Below are positions 1 through 59,466 of a stretch of DNA of 64,000 bases, one piece after another. Numbering within the stretch: position 1 is the stretch's first letter; the number at the start of each line of letters is the position of its first letter. Below the pieces are notes generated by a model. It did not search any database. It saw only the letters and a list, made by a program, of their open reading frames with translations, and was not told the DNA's origin. A program made the position numbers and the translations under genes. Source of the stretch: Phycisphaerae bacterium (GTDB taxonomy: Bacteria > Chloroflexota > Anaerolineae > 4572-78 > J111); the NCBI GenBank assembly GCA_028285035.1, contig JANQQF010000078.1, forward strand, positions 218,126 through 282,125, read 5' to 3'.

Positions 1-3000
1 AGGTCCACCAAGCCACTATCCTTCCACCCAGTTACATTATTACTAAAGCCTGTACGTACAGAAACCTGGAGCCGATATTGATTCTCAAAGGAGTCCCAAT
101 ATAAGTTGAATTCAATCTTTCGACTGCGTGAATTTAGGGTATCGCGTAGTTGCATCCCCCCTTTACTATTAAAAGTAACATCACCAACATCTGTCACCCT
201 AACTATAAAATCCACACCTGTCGAGGTTGTAATTGGATTCTGAAGATGCACATAGTAATGACCTCGATTACTAGCATCATCATTGTTTCCATACGTACTA
301 AATCCATCGCTAATCAACCGCAAACTACCATCTGCATTAGCAAAGCTACCGGCTTGTTTTTGGGTCCAGCCACTGTTGTAACGACGTTCTCCCCAAGTAA
401 ATCCATTGGTAATTTGTTGAGGGACACAAGTGACAGATACGACTGTGTTAGTAATGTTATTTGTCTCACTTGCCTCATACAAGATGTAGTCTGTTGTATC
501 TGCAAACCCATAGATATCAAAATCACCATATTCATTAAAGAAAAAGTCTGGGTGGGTAACCGTAACTGTATACCCTGGTTGCCCATTCGGAGCTAAGTAA
601 TTCTCCCAATACTTGGCATCACCAGGGAAATTAAAGTTGTTTGCATTATATTTTGGAATAAGTGGTGCTGGGTTTTGATAAAAATCAACATCAAAATAGC
701 GGCTTACTGTTACTGGTCTTAGGTTAGCAATGGTCAATGTAATTGGTGCTGTTGTATTGATCTCAACATTTGGCGGAAGCTCAACCTTTGTAATCGCTAA
801 ATCAGCGGGAGAGATAGCCATTTGAGTAAAGGCAACACGATCTAGATTAATGGCTTCCGAATACATATGATAGAAAACCCCATAACAGCCACAGGTATCA
901 GGTTTTGTGAAATCGGGAGCAGGGGTAAGCGGCAGGTCCTTCAAAGCATAAGTTCTTTCGGCCGAACCACTACCATCTGTAATCATTGTAAACAGAAACT
1001 TACCTGAGTCCGTATCAATACCTACATCTTTCCCATAATATATTTTATAGCTTGTATTAGGCGAGTGGTTGTCGATACGAATGGTAATCTCTGAATTAGG
1101 AAGAACTGTATCACCTTCGAGCACCCGAATCACTGGCACAGGTAAAACAGTTACATCTCGCGTTGCTTGTAAAGCCCCTGTACTATCGTGGTGAGAGGCA
1201 ACCTCATAAAGCTTGGGTCCTGTAGACGCGGTTGCGGCTGTAATCGGAATTCGGTACGGTAATACCACTGCGCCTGATGAACCTGAGTCGAACGTATCTC
1301 CACCACCTGATACTTTAACCCGTATATTACCGAAGTTAAGATAATGAATCACATTCGGATCGTGTTGGAACAGACGAATATTGATTGTGGAATCGATTGG
1401 CCAGGTATATCCCCCATCAACCGTGATATAAGGACCTGCAGGGGTATTGATAGTGAAGTCGACACTAGCAATCGGGGTCGAGGTATCTCCAGGCTCATAG
1501 GTTCTCAGCTTATAAGCCCCATCAGTCCAACCAATTTGAATAAATTCTTCGATCGGACTAAATTGACCAATACCATCAGTGGAGACGTTCGCAACAAGGG
1601 CATCTATTCCTGAGGTTACTCCTTCAATACGAATATCATAATTACTATTCGGGGTGTGTCCTTGTAAGAAGGCTGTTAATAAAGCCCCACGTGGGTATTC
1701 ATCCACCGCTTGAGACAGAATAATCTCTGGGGTATTCACATAAAACTCGCCCGAAGCATGGATTATCCCACCAGGTGAAGGCTCGCTACTTTTTCGAGTA
1801 ATCAAAGTACAAGGGGTTGAACTCCCCTGTGGACATTTTCCTTCCAGAGATTTAGGAATTCTCCAATTGGTGATATCCAAATCGGGAGTTGTATCCGTAA
1901 TGCCCCCCTGAATTAAGGTCTCATTTGTGCCATCTGAATAATACACATCAAATGGACCATCAAGTGCATCTTGGTGGTTTACCAGCTTAATTGAAACATT
2001 TGAATTACTGGCCCAAACATCTCCGCCATCAATTTGCACGAGAGGGGTGTCACCCTTTAGAACGGTAAATGTACTTGGATTGCTAGCCTCACCATACCAA
2101 CCGATGGCAACCTGATCAGTCGTCTTTGTTGAATAAAGAAGATAGTCGCCTGCCGTAACACCCTGAGTGATAACACAGGTAGCAGCAACTTCGACACTGG
2201 GCGAAGTGACATTATACTCAGTCGCCCCCCCGTCTACTTCACAACCTATCGTATATTTGACGCCAGTCCCAGCGGCAGGGTTAGAACCTGGTACTTTTTC
2301 TTCTAGCACAACATGATAGGTACCTATTTGATGGGTACGCAAAGTGATTTCAAGTGGCAAATTCTGCTGTTGTTCGCTACGTTCAGGTACAACAGCAGCA
2401 CCTGACGAAAAAACACCGCCAGCTTCTTCAGGATCAAAGCTAATGTTGCTAGGGGGCGGAGGGAAGCCTAATGATTGGTCGAGTCCTTCATTCTGCATTT
2501 CAACTTCCCCGCGAACGCGGATAAAGTTGCCCCCCAGAATGGTATCAAAAATAGGGTCAATCATCTCCACATTATAGTAAGTGGCCACGACCACATTCAA
2601 CCCCTGATCCCCAGCATAGTCAGCCTTAATTCCGACTGAAGTTGGATCTGTACTTGTATCGACAAATTGCCCCGAGACAACGACACCAAATGCCCCCCCT
2701 AAATCTCGACAGGCTGGATCAATATATTCGGACGATGGGGGTACCCCATCATCACCACAAATTTCACTAACAAATAAGGTCTCACCCCGCTCAATCGCCA
2801 CGGCTCGAATGGCTGCCGCTCGATCTTCAGGATCACACACCCACGGTTCCCCATTAACTTCACCCTCGGGTGTTGTACAATCCCCGGTGGCAGTGGACAA
2901 TAAGTTGGGACGACCAGAGATTGCGTAACGAGCTGCTTCGCGGGCAGCGGTTTGGACTGTGATATAGGCCCAGACAATCCGTGACGCTTCTAAAACCCCT

Positions 3001-46906: not shown

Positions 46907-47371
46907 CTACTCCAAAGTCACCGACACATTTTGAACTTGATTTGCACCTGTCGGTAACATAAATTCGCTACTGGTTCCTAAAACATTGCCATCTGGCCCA
47001 TCTTTGACGACCCAGCGAAATGGACCCGTACCAAAATCCTTTACTTCAACAATCCAGGTTTGACTACCCGACGTCGACCCTTGCCAGCCATCGACCAGCT
47101 GCCAGCCGCCATCGGAGTCTTCCCATTCTACGCTGGCCCACAGGCCACCCTGCACAGGCTGGGCACTTAATACAATTGCTGCGGTAGGTGGATCGCCATC
47201 ATCGTCATCATCATCCGACTCCTTCGGCTCCTCTGTTGGGATTGGATCCCGGGGTGGCAACTCTGGGCCAGCCTGGACAAAGTGGGGTCCAACCAACAAA
47301 AATGCAACTGTACTAAAGATAAAGAGGGTCAAACCCAATCTGAATAGCTGGGATTGGCATTTATCATTCAT
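46907..47371 (-). CDS. Small secreted protein with acidic linker, unknown function
   Basis: 154 aa. Signal peptide ending HFVQAG; Pro/Asp-rich linker with a run of Asp (SDDDDDDGD); then ~85 residues of Gly/Trp-rich beta structure (WASVEWEDSDGGW, TWIVEVKDF, FRWVVKDGPDG), reminiscent of a small carbohydrate- or protein-binding beta sandwich. AAGGAGA is 7 nt before the ATG. It is 53 bp after the glycine-rich protein gene, probably in one transcript. No family recognised. Confidence 0.75.
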   Translation of the reverse strand: MNDKCQSQLFRLGLTLFIFSTVAFLLVGPHFVQAGPELPPRDPIPTEEPKESDDDDDDGDPPTAAIVLSAQPVQGGLWASVEWEDSDGGWQLVDGWQGSTSGSQTWIVEVKDFGTGPFRWVVKDGPDGNVLGTSSEFMLPTGANQVQNVSVTLE

Positions 47372-47424: not shown

Positions 47425-49662
47425 CTAATTTGAAACTGTGGTTGATGAGATATTATTGTATGCATCACCCGTGACCTCGTGCTTTTCTAGGACAGCTCCA
47501 TAGGTCGTCGCGCTATTTGAGGTGTCAACCTGAACATAAACGGTTGTTCCAACAGCGATTGGCGTCACAAAGTTGCTCTCAGGCGCAGCTCTGTAGAAGG
47601 CATCATCAATGGTCAAGGTTATCAATCCCCCGGCCTCAATTGGCACGGAGGTTACTCCCCAAACGGCCCCTTGGGTGCCTACATCAAACCATTCCTGATT
47701 AACCCCTGTTGGTACTGTTGTTGGGTTGACATACAGGTCGATAAAGAAGGCATCTGCCACCGCCGCGTCCCCAACATTCTGGATCGTCACGGTGATTGCG
47801 TCTGGTTTGGCGTCAATGTTGGCCACGACCAAATCTGGGGCCACAGCATAATTTCGGTAAATTGCAGGCAAATACGTTTGTCGGATATTGTATTCGTAGG
47901 CTCCGATGTCACAGCTTGTTTGCTGAGGTCGAGTCACCTCACGTTGATCTGTCGCTGGACAAACGAGATCATTACCCGCATCAATCGCCGGGCTGCCGCT
48001 CATTAAAGAATTGACCAACGTTTTACCACCATTTTTGCCAAGAACACCTGTATTTGGATCGCTGGTCACCGAGATAGCCCCCGCGCCTTCACACCCCGAA
48101 TGACTTTCGACCAAATTATTCGAGCCAGCGATAACCGGTGTTCCGGTGAAAATCGAGGCGCTGATACAATCTGAGACCCCATTTGCGGTATTGGCCATAA
48201 TCGTATTGGCATAAGCCAGTCCGGCAAAATTAGCAAACCCGTCGGCTAGGTTATACATGGCCCCACCGCCATTGGCCGCTGTGTTATCAACCAACGTAGC
48301 GTTCAAAATAGCAATGTTGCCATTCAAATTAAAAATGGCACCGCCTAAACCTTGGCCAGCCTGGGCATCACTACCACCAGACGCACCACCAATGGCTTGG
48401 TTACTGGATAACGTACTATTGGTAATAAGCAAGGTACCGGTCATATTGAAGATCGCGCCACCAAAACCGGCACCACCACCACCGGCCGCGTCGCCTAATG
48501 TTGCACCATTACCAGCACCAAAACCGCCAAGGCCATCATAACCACCGCCGCCCCCGCCAAAGCCGCCGTCACCACCAAACCCAACAACACCAACATCACT
48601 ACCACCGCCGCCGCCAAAACCGCCAAAGCCGCCTAAAGCAGCGCCGCCGCCGCCAAAGCCGCCATTACCACCCTCGAAGAAGATACCGCCGCCGCCGCCG
48701 CCGCCGCCAAAGCCGCCAGCACCACCGACACAGCAGCCAAGCACAGCACCGATACCACCACCGCCGCCGCCGCCGCCATCGTTACCCACACCGCCATCAC
48801 CACCAGCCCCGGCCGTAGTTCCATCGACACCGATACCAAATTCACCGCCGCCAAAACCACCGGCCCCGCCATCACCACCAGCCTGATCGCCACCATCGGC
48901 GCCATCGGTCATCCAGCCACCGCCACCGCCGCCGCCGCCTTCAGCAAAGCCGCCGCCGCCGTCACCGCCGTCACCGCCGAAGCCGCCACCGCCGCCACCG
49001 CCAGTTATGTTATCGAGCTCATCAACCGAACTACCACCATTTCCACCCATACCACCGCCACCAGCGGGGGTGGCCCCACCAGCCCCGCCCACAGCCGCGT
49101 TACTATAGATTGTGGTTCTATTTAGGTGAAGCTGACCATTATTAAAGATCGCACCCCCCATACCAGCCCCACCACCACCGCCGGTACCACCTTGGGCGTG
49201 GCCATTCGTTAGCATAACATCGTACAATCGCAAATCACCGCCGGGAATAACCACTGTCCCACCAGTTGAGCCATTAATCTCATTATCTATCTCATCACCA
49301 ACAACCGAGAAAATACGGAAGGTCTCTGTTGCGCTGGTCGAGCGCATAATTGTCGCCCCATTCCCTGAAATGATAATCGTACTGGTAATGGCCGGTAATC
49401 CGGTTGGGCCAAACCAGTAATTATCAGGATTGGTCAAGGTATAGTCACAGGTGGACAAGCCCGTTGGATTGAGCACGATGGTATCGCCTGCCGGGTCCAC
49501 ATTCGCATCGTTAATGGCTTGTACTAATGCGGAAACATCACCGCAAGTGACATTAAATGTTGCAGCTTCAGCTACGGGGAGTTGAGATTGGAACAAAACG
49601 AGGGTCATGAGAGCCAGAGTTAGTCCAAAAAATAGGCTCAAAAATAAACGCTTCAGTGGCAT
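47425..49662 (-). CDS. Large secreted glycine-rich beta-helix protein with CARDB-like domain
   Basis: 745 aa. Signal peptide ends VAEA|AT; FNVTCGDVSALVQAINDAN starts a right-handed beta-helix of the choice-of-anchor Q / polymorphic outer-membrane type. Residues ~158-405 are extremely Gly-rich (GGGGGGFGG repeats). GAIFN-type turns and LVNSLMSGSPAIDAGND then CDIGAYEY close the helix; YLPAIYRNY at ~597-605; a CARDB-like sandwich to ~735. Exported surface protein, possibly adhesive or scaffold; no enzymatic motif. AAGGAG precedes the ATG and a good promoter lies at 49720-49748. Confidence 0.85.
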   Translation of the reverse strand: MPLKRLFLSLFFGLTLALMTLVLFQSQLPVAEAATFNVTCGDVSALVQAINDANVDPAGDTIVLNPTGLSTCDYTLTNPDNYWFGPTGLPAITSTIIISGNGATIMRSTSATETFRIFSVVGDEIDNEINGSTGGTVVIPGGDLRLYDVMLTNGHAQGGTGGGGGAGMGGAIFNNGQLHLNRTTIYSNAAVGGAGGATPAGGGGMGGNGGSSVDELDNITGGGGGGGFGGDGGDGGGGFAEGGGGGGGGWMTDGADGGDQAGGDGGAGGFGGGEFGIGVDGTTAGAGGDGGVGNDGGGGGGGGIGAVLGCCVGGAGGFGGGGGGGGIFFEGGNGGFGGGGAALGGFGGFGGGGGSDVGVVGFGGDGGFGGGGGGYDGLGGFGAGNGATLGDAAGGGGAGFGGAIFNMTGTLLITNSTLSSNQAIGGASGGSDAQAGQGLGGAIFNLNGNIAILNATLVDNTAANGGGAMYNLADGFANFAGLAYANTIMANTANGVSDCISASIFTGTPVIAGSNNLVESHSGCEGAGAISVTSDPNTGVLGKNGGKTLVNSLMSGSPAIDAGNDLVCPATDQREVTRPQQTSCDIGAYEYNIRQTYLPAIYRNYAVAPDLVVANIDAKPDAITVTIQNVGDAAVADAFFIDLYVNPTTVPTGVNQEWFDVGTQGAVWGVTSVPIEAGGLITLTIDDAFYRAAPESNFVTPIAVGTTVYVQVDTSNSATTYGAVLEKHEVTGDAYNNISSTTVSN

Positions 49663-50055: not shown

Positions 50056-51675
50056 TTAGGGATCAACGCCATACAACTCCGTTTGGGGATAGAAACTAAA
50101 CCAGCCAAACCAATACGCCATATGCCCAGGTAAACGTTCCAACGTCTCACCATCTTCTCGGACCAACGCATCATCAGTCACCTCCCAGGTCTGACCGGTG
50201 TCATCAACCAATATCGCAGTTGAGTCTGCCGCAGACGCTGTGAAGGTATAATCGGCGCGATCATACGCGACCGCCCCGTGCCCCCCATCGCTGTGAACCA
50301 CAACCAAGCTTTGTCCACCATGCGTATCATTAACCACCTGCTCATCCGACAGGGTGGAGAGCGCATAAGCTTTGGGTTTATCATCAATCAGTTGCGTAAA
50401 TACCCAACTCTTGGTGGGCAATAATTCACTTCGTCGCCAAACCGGGAACATTGTTCCGGGATCGGCAAAGTATGCCGCATAGGCCGCCCCCGCCCTGTAA
50501 TCTCGGGTGAAGCCCGTTTCAAAGGACATCACTTTTGTATCTGGATTATTGGCATACCAATCTTCCCACGTGGTCAGGGTAACCGGGAGTCGTTCAAGCT
50601 GAATGCCACTACCGACCAAGCTACCAAACGCAGGCGTTCCCCACAACTGATGCCACAGGGTATCCGTCTGGCGATCATACATCAATTTGTTACTCCGATA
50701 GAGAAAACCGGAGGAACCAAAGGTAAAGTAATCTTCTGGCTTTGGCTGAGGCCCGGCCCCACCCGTTATTTCATAATCTTCAGGAATGTCGAGGCCATCC
50801 AGGCTCGTCTTGTACAGCACCGCTGCACCACAGAGCGTTCAGTAGGCCAGGGAGACAGGCTCGCCTCCCACCACATCATTGAACATTTCGTGCCAGTCCA
50901 GGAAACGGGCCGGATAGGCTCGGGTATCGCCATTGATGCTGACTCCAAACACCCGCTCGTCTGCCTCAAGATAGCTCGCTTCCTCTGGGCTAATCATCTC
51001 AGGGTTATCGAGGGCTGGAATACCGTCAACTCGAACGCCACCCCAAACAATTTCCTCCACCCTAGAGTCAGGATCAACTGACACATCCTGATAGACAAAC
51101 CGCAGAAAAGCCGGATCAATTTGGGCAAAAAGATTTGCTTTCCAGCCAGGATATCCCTCAAAACTCTCAATTTCAGGATGATTTCCGGCCCACTCTACCC
51201 ACGTAAACCAATCGCCATTAACAATATCGGCCCCAGTCAACGTACTCAACGCAAAACTTAATTCATCCTGCATATTCCGTTGGTAGCGCATCACATCAAC
51301 CAAGCCAGCCACAAACCGTTGATCGCCCGAATCACGAATGATAATTAAGGCTTCTTCGAATCGTGCGGGAGCATCGGTAAACAAAAGCTCATTGAGCAAT
51401 TCACCGTGAGGCAAATCTGCCACTTCTGTTTCAACCTCTTCTGTCGCAGTTGCCACCTCGGCCTCAGTAGCTGTAGGCTCGGGTGCGTCGGTTGCCGTCG
51501 CTGGAGCTTCCGTTTCCGCCACCTCGACCACCACTTCCTCTGTCGGCTCAACTTCGACTTCTTCTTCTACCTGTGTTGCCGTGGAATTATCCACAGGCTC
51601 GACTGTCGGAGTCCCTGCCACACTGTTACACCCTACAAGCAGCAGAGTTACTCCAAGCCACAATTGTTTTTTCAC
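50056..51675 (-). CDS. DUF3179 lipoprotein, probable selenoprotein (in-frame UGA at 50839-50841)
   Basis: One reading frame of 539 residues from a GTG at 51675 (AAGGAG 8 nt upstream) to a stop at 50056, broken only by a TGA at 50839-50841. Residues 1-16 are a lipoprotein signal (LLLVGC), then a Glu/Thr-rich stalk (~25-95), then DUF3179: RVFGVSINGDTRAYPARFL, WHEMFNDVVGG, VSLAY, UGA279, TLCGAAVLY, and after it SSGFLYRSNKLMYDRQT and GFTRDY. The family normally has Cys-x-x-Cys here, so decoding UGA as Sec gives U279-x-x-C282, a redox motif. A 7-bp hairpin (GUGCAGC/GCUGUAC, loop GGU) begins 10 nt and reaches its loop 17 nt after the UGA, fitting bacterial SECIS rules. Both halves stay well conserved, so a pseudogene is unlikely. 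Function of DUF3179 unknown; extracytoplasmic redox role inferred. Confidence 0.82.
50812..50841 (-). promoter_or_regulatory. Sec UGA codon and candidate bacterial SECIS hairpin
   Basis: UGA at 50841-50839; stem GUGCAGC (50828-50822) with GCUGUAC (50818-50812), one G-U pair, apical loop GGU (50821-50819). UGA-to-loop distance is 17 nt and the loop starts with G, as recalled for the bSECIS consensus (16-37 nt, G in the first two loop bases). Confidence 0.68.
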
Positions 51676-51732
51676 GCCATGATCTCCTTTATCACTAAAT
51701 GTATTTGGGCTCCGCCTCACCCTACCAACCAA

Positions 51733-55006: not shown

Positions 55007-56011
55007 TTAATCAGGCAGAGGATATTCTTCGAGTAGTTGCTCAGCCTTCTCAACGACTTCGGACAACACATCATATAAAGCTTCGCCCGACACGGTCGCT
55101 CCTGCAGCCGAGGGATGGCCTCCCCCACCGTATTCAGCCGCCAGCTTATTAATGGGGCAAGTGCCATCACTACGAAGGCTGATTTTTATTTTGCTGCGTG
55201 AACTTTCAGCGCAGAAAACAACAATGCGTACCCCACCAACAGTCTGTCCCATACTCGCAAAACCATCCAATTCCGATGTCTGCACCTTGTAAGCCTTTAG
55301 CGTGTTGAGATCAAGGGCGTAGTAAGCAATTTGTCCAGCCGAGGTCGTCTTAATCAAATTCATAACGTGTCCTTTGAGACGGACTCGCCGCAAAGGATTC
55401 TGCTCATAAATTTTTCGGTATGTGCCTAACGGATCAGCTCCGTTAGAAACTAAGGCTGCTGCCACTTGATGGGTATGGGCGCTGGTTTTGGGAAAGCGAA
55501 AATTTCCTGTGTCGGTGATCACCCCAGCATAAAGGGCTGTCGCCATTGTAGTAGATAGGATTACACCATGGTCGATCAATAAATCATAGATGAGTTCAGC
55601 CGTAGCCGCCGCATCGGTATCAACGACCGCGACATCAACAAAATCAATGGCATCTGGGTGATGGTCGATACATAACTTAAGGGCATTACTTTGCGCGAGC
55701 GCAGTCCCAACCGGACCGATTCGTTGCCAACCACCAGACGCATCAAGCACAATCACCACCTCAGCTTTATCGATGACAGCTTGGTGCTTCTCAACTTGAT
55801 ACTGCTCAATCATCCGATGAGGGTCAAGAAAACGGTAATTATCTGGCACACCATCACTGTTGATGATTGACACCTGCTTATTTTGGTTATGTAAAAATTC
55901 AGCTAATGCTAACTCTGAACCTAACGCATCACAATCGGGATTGACATGGGAAGTGATGATGAATTTTTGATTGTGTTTTAGATGAGGTGCGATATTATCC
56001 CACAAAGGCAA
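55007..56011 (-). CDS. DHH-family phosphoesterase (NrnA / bifunctional oligoRNase-PAP type)
   Basis: 334 aa. Metal motifs SHVNPDCDALGSE, VVIVLDASG, CIDHHPDA (DHH), and DTDAAATAEL; DHHA1 C-terminal domain with GGGGHPSAAGA. Matches NrnA, which degrades short RNAs and pAp; hydrolysis of other phosphodiesters is possible. TTG start at 56011 with GGAG 7 nt upstream. A lone unit between a kinase gene and an amidase gene. Confidence 0.92.
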   Translation of the reverse strand: MPLWDNIAPHLKHNQKFIITSHVNPDCDALGSELALAEFLHNQNKQVSIINSDGVPDNYRFLDPHRMIEQYQVEKHQAVIDKAEVVIVLDASGGWQRIGPVGTALAQSNALKLCIDHHPDAIDFVDVAVVDTDAAATAELIYDLLIDHGVILSTTMATALYAGVITDTGNFRFPKTSAHTHQVAAALVSNGADPLGTYRKIYEQNPLRRVRLKGHVMNLIKTTSAGQIAYYALDLNTLKAYKVQTSELDGFASMGQTVGGVRIVVFCAESSRSKIKISLRSDGTCPINKLAAEYGGGGHPSAAGATVSGEALYDVLSEVVEKAEQLLEEYPLPD

Positions 56012-58035: not shown

Positions 58036-59466
58036 ATGTTCACAGAAATTCTTGCTATTACAAACTTTATTGTTGAGGCCTTTATTCATATTTGGCCATA
58101 CTTGTTGATTACCATTCCTTTAGCTGTCGCCGTGCAGATGTCCGGAGCATCCAAGTATATCAGCACCGCCTTACAAGCCCGTCCAGCCACGGCTATTCTA
58201 GCGGCCACGGCGGTCGGAGCCTTCAGTCCGTTCTGCTCCTGCGGTGTCATTCCAATGGTCGCCGCCCTGTTGATCGGCGGTGTACCTCTTGCCCCAGTGA
58301 TGGCCTTCTGGATTTCATCGCCATCGATGGACCCAGAGATTTTCTTCCTCAGTGTCGCGACCCTGGGCTGGGAGTTAGCAGTCTGGCGCTTAGTAGCAAC
58401 CTTGATTTTGAGCCTCGTTGCTGGCTTCGGTACCCATCTGCTGGTGCAACGAGGTTGGTTGGGCGAAAATATCTTACGCCCCCAAATCTTGAATGGTCAA
58501 TCGGCTCCAGTTGTAGGAACCACCTGGAGTATGCTTAAAGGGGGCTGGCAACGATTGCGACAACGCCTGACTGTTGCCCCAACAATGGGGATTGTCAGCG
58601 GCGGGTTTAGTCGCCCTAGCCCCTCCGCCCAAGATAATGAGCCAGTTCCCGTGGCTGAAACATCCAGTTGCTGTAGCAGTGAGCCAATTACAGTGAGTCA
58701 GCCAGCCGAGCTCACTCTAACTGCCGCCGAAAGCAGTTGCTGTTCACCCGCCCCAGCTACTGTGGCGATTGAACCGAATGTTAGTCTGAATCCCGAAGTA
58801 GCGGAAAGCTCCTGCTGTGGGAATAGTAACGCACCGATGGCAACGTCCGTGAACTTGCTCGCCATCCAACCAGTTGAACCCGCATCAACGGCTGATAGCT
58901 GCTGTACACCCGCGCCAACGGTGGCCCAAGCCGTCAATCTGGAGTTGAATAGTACGTCTGATTGCTGTACCCCAGCGCCGATTCAACTCGCTAGTGATAG
59001 CTGTGGCTGTGGCGACGCAACCGAAGGGGCAACTTGTGCACCCAAGCCCGCTAGTTTCCGCCAGCGGCTCTTAAAAGAAACCTGGGTTGCCACGGCAATG
59101 GTGGTCAAATTTATGGCCTTAGCCTTCTTCCTGGAAGCACTCATCACCCTTTACGTGCCTTCTACGTGGATCATCGGCATACTCGGCCCACAAAATCCGC
59201 TGGCCATCCTCACCGCTGCCTTGATTGGCGTACCATTCTACACCAGCAGCTTGGCGGCCTTGCCACTCATTAGTGGCTTGCTGGCTCAGGGAATGAACCC
59301 GGCGGCGGGTCTGGCCTTCCTCATTGCTGGCCCAACCACCACACTCCCGGCAATGGCTGCCGTTTGGGGCTTAGTTAACCGCCGAGTATTTGGCCTGTAC
59401 GTTGCCTTCTCAATGGTCGGCGCGGTTGCGTTGGGGTATGTGTATGGGTTGGTCGCGATGTTTTAG
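58036..59466 (+). CDS. Permease (ArsP / DUF318 type) with repeated Cys-Cys loop
   Basis: 476 aa. Two membrane halves (~10-140 and ~345-476) flank a long hydrophilic loop. The first half has FSPFCSCGVIP (C67, C69), the motif of the SO_0444/ArsP permease family that exports arsenicals or Cu/Zn-type metals. The loop carries five separate Cys-Cys pairs (212, 235, 260, 289, 310), each in a [ED]S[SD]CC-like context 21-29 residues apart, and a final SCGCGD plus C334. Most family members have no such loop. It likely binds soft metal or As(III) and feeds the pore, or senses it (inference). Controlled by the ArsR protein upstream. Confidence 0.9.
   Translation: MFTEILAITNFIVEAFIHIWPYLLITIPLAVAVQMSGASKYISTALQARPATAILAATAVGAFSPFCSCGVIPMVAALLIGGVPLAPVMAFWISSPSMDPEIFFLSVATLGWELAVWRLVATLILSLVAGFGTHLLVQRGWLGENILRPQILNGQSAPVVGTTWSMLKGGWQRLRQRLTVAPTMGIVSGGFSRPSPSAQDNEPVPVAETSSCCSSEPITVSQPAELTLTAAESSCCSPAPATVAIEPNVSLNPEVAESSCCGNSNAPMATSVNLLAIQPVEPASTADSCCTPAPTVAQAVNLELNSTSDCCTPAPIQLASDSCGCGDATEGATCAPKPASFRQRLLKETWVATAMVVKFMALAFFLEALITLYVPSTWIIGILGPQNPLAILTAALIGVPFYTSSLAALPLISGLLAQGMNPAAGLAFLIAGPTTTLPAMAAVWGLVNRRVFGLYVAFSMVGAVALGYVYGLVAMF

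Follow-up and report, generated by a model that had tools for sequence, protein, structure and literature searches.

The DUF3179 lipoprotein gene of a 64,000-nucleotide (nt) stretch of contig JANQQF010000078.1, called the window below, was found to carry a single in-frame UGA. We propose that this UGA is likely decoded as selenocysteine (Sec) with the help of a hairpin behind it, which would give a lipoprotein, predicted to be exported, with a Sec-x-x-Cys pair that is likely a thiol/selenol redox centre (probability approximately 0.82). We infer Sec insertion in the organism of the window, as well as lipidation and export, from the sequence, and the function is likely that of an extracytoplasmic thiol/selenol oxidoreductase. 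The features of the gene and of its product were as follows, where SECIS is the selenocysteine insertion sequence and L002 is a relative of the gene.

50056..51675, minus strand: DUF3179 lipoprotein gene with GTG start, single in-frame UGA and TAA stop; 539 residues on read-through
51684..51688, minus strand: AGGAG, similar to a ribosome-binding site, 8 nt upstream of the GTG start at 51675; its function is suggested by the sequence
51628..51675, minus strand: putative signal peptide with lipobox LLVG-C (Cys16), read by eye; lipidation is predicted
50839..50841, minus strand: UGA codon, predicted Sec279, with Cys282 as its UxxC partner, from the reading frame and the homologue column
50812..50828, minus strand: predicted SECIS apical hairpin GUGCAGC-GGU-GCUGUAC, loop 50821-50819, from the fold, the synonymous-codon test and a compensatory change in L002
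50803..50836, minus strand: possible longer SECIS stem, GCUC (50836-50833) with GAGC (50806-50803), from the minimum-energy fold only
50521..50994, minus strand: repeat 1, residues 228-385, bearing His262 and Sec279/Cys282; predicted Rieske-like fold
50077..50433, minus strand: repeat 2, residues 415-533, without the His and the UxxC; homologous to repeat 1, with the fold match obtained within the whole model

The initial annotation had described two halves in one frame split only by a TGA. This was confirmed, with the TGA at 50841-50839, both half open reading frames (ORFs) in place and the PF11376 profile spanning the UGA. The read-through protein scored 263.4 bits over profile positions 2-292 of 292 (gathering cut-off 27 bits), and the half-ORFs alone scored 163 bits (columns 82-292) and 74 bits (columns 2-64), which are neighbouring stretches of a single profile. 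The motif around the UGA was Y-U-T-L-C-G on read-through. The N-terminus of the predicted product, with GTG read as M, was MKKQLWLGVTLLLVGC. It was judged by eye to be a lipoprotein-type signal, and the lipobox LLVGC was read at residues 12-16, so lipidation is predicted. The recoding appeared to be local, as had been claimed. TGA ended 14 of the 44 counted window ORFs of at least 150 amino acids (aa), including the UGA at residue 279 (13 of the 43 others), after the 48 listed ORFs had been reduced by 4 that overlapped. Since TGA was a normal stop in other window ORFs, the genetic code looked standard. Joins across an in-frame TGA (both arms >60 codons, total >200) were counted in the window; there were 4, and the DUF3179 join was the longest at 560, the next being 218.

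The codon at residue 279 was compared among relatives, an alignment that the initial annotation had suggested. A first scan of public genomes, from which the best 80 of 90 relatives were used, gave TGC in 69, TGT in 6 and TGA in 5. The full set of 156 genes, window included, combined these loci with loci from whole-genome searches, and here the column read TGC in 108, TGT in 18 and TGA in 30, with no other codon. The claim that the TGA replaces the first Cys of a conserved CxxC was supported, with a Cys codon or TGA in this column of all 156 genes. An in-frame UGA at a position that is Cys in homologues (126 Cys, 30 TGA) is the pattern expected of a predicted selenoprotein. The motif was [YFW]-[C/U]-x-x-C in the 155 rows other than L108, a row with a TGC codon that was counted as Cys and was misaligned in the hairpin statistics, tree and conservation counts. 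Exactly one stop was found within the matched stretch of 30 of 30 TGA genes (the match of L140 covers only residues 217-341). No stop was found in 124 of 126 Cys genes, and one elsewhere in L074 and L129; this extra stop (TAA in the genome-search row of L129) may reflect decay, frameshift or alignment artefact. Matches that were listed only, outside the 156, included four single-TGA rows (G461, G535, G559 and a second G403 gene), and a few of the matches outside the 156 contained internal TAA or TAG. The closest relatives of the window gene for which DNA was available, L001 and L002, both carried TGA in this column, and downstream of the TGA the window protein was 68% and 65% identical to them, respectively.

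The hairpin described in the initial annotation (7 bp, GGU loop, 17 nt past the UGA) was present. The UGA-to-loop spacing was 17 nt, the stem 7 bp and the loop 3 nt, GGU, and the energy was -9.3 kcal/mol for the hairpin stretch and -7.9 for the bare hairpin. The criteria for a bacterial SECIS given in PMC13188914 are a loop of 3-9 nt, a stem of 4-16 bp, a G in the first two loop positions, a spacing of 16-37 nt and an energy of <=-7.5 kcal/mol, and the window hairpin agreed with all of them. Plain folding energy was not unusual compared with dinucleotide shuffles (z -0.14), which meant that the SECIS was not separable by energy alone. The signal appeared only when the protein was held fixed. 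Under synonymous-codon resampling with a fixed protein, the window hairpin gave z -3.4 (p 0.002). The mean z of the TGA genes was -1.78, with 16 of 30 at p<0.05, whereas that of the Cys genes was -0.34, with 13 of 126 at p<0.05 (one row misaligned). The difference between the two groups gave a Mann-Whitney p of 3e-8, which is optimistic because the rows are related. Three stretches farther downstream in the TGA genes gave mean z values of 0.57, 0.08 and -0.19. By clade, the mean z was -3.43 for that of the window, -1.84, -1.15, -1.67, -1.63 and -2.19 for others, and -0.37 for the Nitrospinota Sec pair, which gave no support for a codon-favoured hairpin.

Covariation was examined in 16 rows picked for a single hairpin register (112 cells). 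Pairing was kept in 93.8% of the cells, and 18 cells were altered on both sides. The score of these chosen rows was 0.435, compared with 0.117 for shuffled and <=0.044 for slid alignments. The double-change pairs (3) and further pair types (6) in the same rows were no more than in shuffles. Within the window clade of three, the closing pair C-G of the window was G-C in L002, a compensatory change in which the codons went from GCG to GGG (Ala to Gly) and then from GTG to GTC (Val kept). The synonymous choice and the covariation suggested that the hairpin may act as a SECIS and help to decode the UGA as Sec279.

The machinery for Sec was searched in the genomes of 12 relatives (5 first-found TGA genomes and 7 Cys genomes). 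All 5 TGA genomes had SelB above the cut-off, as did 3 of the 7 Cys genomes; for SelA the counts were 4 of 5 and 3 of 7, respectively. Among the eight best RF01852 loci, ARAGORN called tRNA-Sec (UCA) in 4 of 5 TGA genomes and 3 of 7 Cys genomes. The four calls in TGA genomes were confirmed by Rfam, and in the remaining TGA genome, G001, the best RF01852 match was tRNA-Ser. In the class of G001, SelB was above the cut-off in 160 of 199 genomes and tRNA-Sec was found in 146. For the 10 genomes of this class with a fetched TGA locus (G001, G059, G062, G063, G081, G096, G155, G179, G188 and G198), SelB was found in 9 and tRNA-Sec in 7. SelD was above the cut-off in 19 of the 21 TGA genomes tried (24 genomes supplied TGA loci). 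The selD gene had an in-frame TGA of its own in 18 of these 21, so SelD itself is probably also a selenoprotein in those 18 genomes. The initial annotation had expected an exported selenoprotein lipoprotein to be unusual in Chloroflexota. This did not hold because SelB was so common in the class searched (the 160 of 199) and because a (seleno)lipoprotein family, Rcas_1661, already exists.

These data were weighed against other explanations of the UGA. A nonsense mutation, or a sequencing or assembly error, in an ordinary Cys-type DUF3179 gene is scarcely credible. In its favour, the metagenome protein P0002, 64% identical, displays C at column 279, although this display may stand for U. Such an accident does not explain TGA in the same column of 29 further genes from separate assemblies and clades, including L001 and L002, the high identity to both after the TGA, or the synonymous choice that favours the hairpin. 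Equally improbable is a pair of proteins, one stopping at the UGA and the other beginning downstream of it at GTG 50820. An ORF with this start does exist. However, the GTG sits within the hairpin and, as the initial annotation had noted of a second start, no ribosome-binding-like sequence was seen ahead of it by eye. Two proteins would also split the PF11376 domain and deprive the second half of a signal peptide, and both parts are fused through a Cys codon in 126 relatives. Decoding of the UGA as another amino acid, by genome-wide reassignment or by a tRNA-Cys with UCA anticodon, seemed very improbable as well. Such tRNAs exist elsewhere, and Cys inserted at column 279 would function, as relatives have Cys there. 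Against this stand the 13 of 43 other long window ORFs that end in TGA, a position-specific hairpin for which such decoding has no need, and the presence of SelB, SelA, SelD and tRNA-Sec in most TGA genomes tested.

The relation between Sec and Cys forms was examined with a FastTree tree of 155 genes, in which residue 279 was masked and a midpoint root was used for drawing. The tree required 7 U/C changes, 4 of them forced by starred branches. The window gene, L001 and L002 made up an all-Sec group with support 100, apart from the other Sec clades. Elsewhere in the tree, Sec was placed in a group of short forms (W/F/Y-U-P-L/I-C), in two groups that come from the class of G003, in the Nitrospinota pair and in L144, a Sec form single on a long branch. 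The predicted Sec forms arise in several separate clades, mostly of Chloroflexota type, which is new here.

Several loci showed features of their own. L139 (G179 contig 152, 5.6-9.3 kb) has three adjacent DUF3179 genes, one Cys and two of short Sec type (TWUPICYTG), and L145 is a tandem of three Cys-type genes. In the class of 47 genomes to which G002 belongs, no other genome has a match close to the window gene at E 1e-50, and one further match, G267, is distant. The G002 locus, L002, nevertheless falls into one group with the window and with L001, a locus from Anaerolineae, which may reflect horizontal transfer or a binning error. L144 (G096 contig 98, about 2.5-3.7 kb) is a very divergent DUF3179 with U-A-A-C replacing U-P-L-C and a hairpin signal of its own. 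It has one internal TGA and one at the gene end, and its residues 262-263 are Arg-His, whereas elsewhere they are His-Glu, or Arg-Glu in six Sec rows.

Conserved residues were then compared across the family. Cys282, Asp334 and Trp341 were invariant in 155 of 155 aligned rows, and Glu263 (153), Asn266 (153), Asp267 (151) and His262 (147) were nearly so. Apart from the masked residue 279, Cys282 was the only column with Cys in more than 15 rows. His262 was found in 125 of 125 scorable Cys rows (the remaining row, L107, has a gap). In the Sec rows it was His in 22 of 29 and Arg in 7 of 29. Arg was confined to Sec rows, and the seven Arg262 rows sit at three places in the tree. In the predicted model, strands 264-269 and 272-279 are the two arms of a hairpin, and pairing arithmetic would set residue 262 opposite residue 279.

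Repeat 1 and repeat 2 matched each other by hhalign at 99.4% (E 6e-22). From this comparison, DUF3179 is an internal duplication, which is new here. In a structure comparison of predicted models, each repeat matched Rieske-fold entries, with model 21..143 aligned to chain about 2..96. A Foldseek search with the whole model had no match at E 0.001, the top rows being unrelated folds. When repeat 1 and repeat 2 were compared by hhalign with 13 Rieske domains, the values were only 1% and 0.5%, and neither repeat matched PF00355. Sequence searches of solved structures gave nothing for the whole protein, and the repeat 1 profile gave only weak lectin matches (E >=0.63). The Rieske motif has the spacing C-x-H-x(15-17)-C-x-x-H. 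The C-x-H...C-x-x-H cluster motif was absent from the DUF3179 protein, which has no CxH partner because Cys282 is the sole Cys column beside 279 and position 260 varies. D260-W-H262-x16-C279-x-x-C282 was considered as a ligand-swapped form of the motif and was rejected, as residue 260 is unconserved; the structural alignment ranges, which suggest that the Cys pair precedes the cluster loops, also disfavoured it. We predict from the models that the DUF3179 repeats are Rieske-like without the cluster motif, which is likewise new here.

The fold raised an explanation in which the protein is a true selenoprotein whose Sec/Cys pair, like the ligands of a Rieske fold, holds a metal or an iron-sulfur centre and performs no thiol redox. 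The match of each repeat to Rieske-fold entries speaks for it, and His262 with Cys279/Cys282 resembles a possible ligand set. The missing cluster motif, the unconserved residue 260 and a Cys pair that appears from the alignment ranges to precede the cluster loops speak against it. In addition, Arg replaces His262 in 7 Sec rows, which would hardly be tolerable for a ligand. We regard such a centre as unlikely, although it deserved more weight than the explanations that deny Sec.

For the redox centre that we prefer, the following mechanism was drawn up. The product would be exported as a lipoprotein, and the Sec279-x-x-Cys282 pair would act as the redox centre. The two predicted Rieske-like repeats would serve as the scaffold, with repeat 2 catalytically dead. 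His262, across the two-strand hairpin from residue 279, may activate the Cys279 thiol and may become dispensable once the residue is Sec. Candidate substrates outside the membrane are a disulfide, a peroxide or another oxidant. A wider scenario is tentative, and we would put it at well under even odds. Here, a duplicated Rieske-like fold would have lost its Fe-S cluster and become an extracytoplasmic thiol/selenol oxidoreductase, in which residue 279 attacks opposite His262, Cys282 resolves, and Sec frees the enzyme from the His, with about 7 Cys/Sec switches.

The surroundings of the gene were also inspected. The minus strand of 47425-49662 encodes a glycine-rich protein of 745 aa that looks secreted and contains long GG-rich tracts. 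It is followed by a 154-aa ORF (46907-47371, minus strand), and neither had a Pfam match at E 0.001. The DHH-family protein encoded at 55007-56011 was matched at E 1e-60 in 9 of the 199 genomes of the G001 class, and each of these nine was also among the genomes listed for the order of G001, so the window probably comes from that order or from one close to it. An ArsP_1-type predicted permease (58036-59466, plus strand; PF03773, 128 bits) lies a few genes off, with no evidence linking it to the predicted selenoprotein. The Rfam scan of the window gave no match at the gathering score, and ARAGORN found no tRNA in it. When the ORFs flanking the gene in the window and in the fetched DUF3179 loci were clustered, no specific partner gene emerged. 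Two larger clusters (19 and 18 loci) were judged to consist of antisense frames and of the parts of TGA genes upstream of the TGA, and the next (11, 10 and 8 loci) resembled generic metabolic enzymes, judging by their N-termini.

The caution of the initial annotation about novelty was justified. Both PMC9312934, which cites a 2007 study of Olavius algarvensis symbionts (its reference 63), and PMC13188914 (its reference 60) count DUF3179 among the selenoprotein families, with the motif UxxC/T. The NCBI names of P0016 (Dehalococcoidia) and P0055 (Anaerolineae) already contain '(seleno)protein'. The class is therefore known, and the window gene is a further member. A table in PMC9230427 includes a DUF3179 protein. 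PMC5424206 deals with how tRNA-Cys is charged in Chloroflexi and further groups, and the term UGA does not occur in the text available from it. The literature on DUF3179, on PF11376 and on selenoproteins with Rieske, as far as the accessible text goes, gave no account of the fold or function of DUF3179. The present analysis adds comparative evidence for an uncharacterised selenoprotein family, namely a fixed column, a codon-kept hairpin, covariation and machinery in relatives. It also gives the first hypothesis that we found on the fold and catalytic residues of DUF3179. The recurrent Cys/Sec exchange, with the linked loss of His, may provide a natural test of what Sec alters in an enzyme.

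Compared with known systems, the window protein shared the PF11376 family and the UxxC with the listed DUF3179 selenoproteins. It differed from them in being a long form, which has a lipoprotein signal and an additional helical segment at the N-terminus. In the tree, the Sec clade that it forms with L001 and L002 was distinct from the other Sec clades. Compared with Rieske ferredoxins and NirD (nitrite reductase small subunit), DUF3179 has no cluster motif and no detectable sequence kinship. NCBIfam has a (seleno)lipoprotein family, Rcas_1661 thioredoxin-like (NF041057), and Rcas presumably denotes a Chloroflexota genome. This family is an exported (seleno)lipoprotein with UxxC, as predicted for the window protein. 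Homology between the two was unsupported, with 12.5 bits for the whole and 13.8 bits for the first half (cut-off 190), and the match covered only residues 6-80, the signal peptide and linker. The Rcas_1661 family is listed as DsbG-like with UxxC in PMC13188914. The Cys-type DUF3179 proteins (126 genes) have the same domain and the same conserved His262, Glu263, Asn266, Asp267, Cys282, Asp334 and Trp341. They differ in having Cys for Sec, in keeping His262 in all 125 scorable rows, and in a far weaker hairpin signal after the codon.
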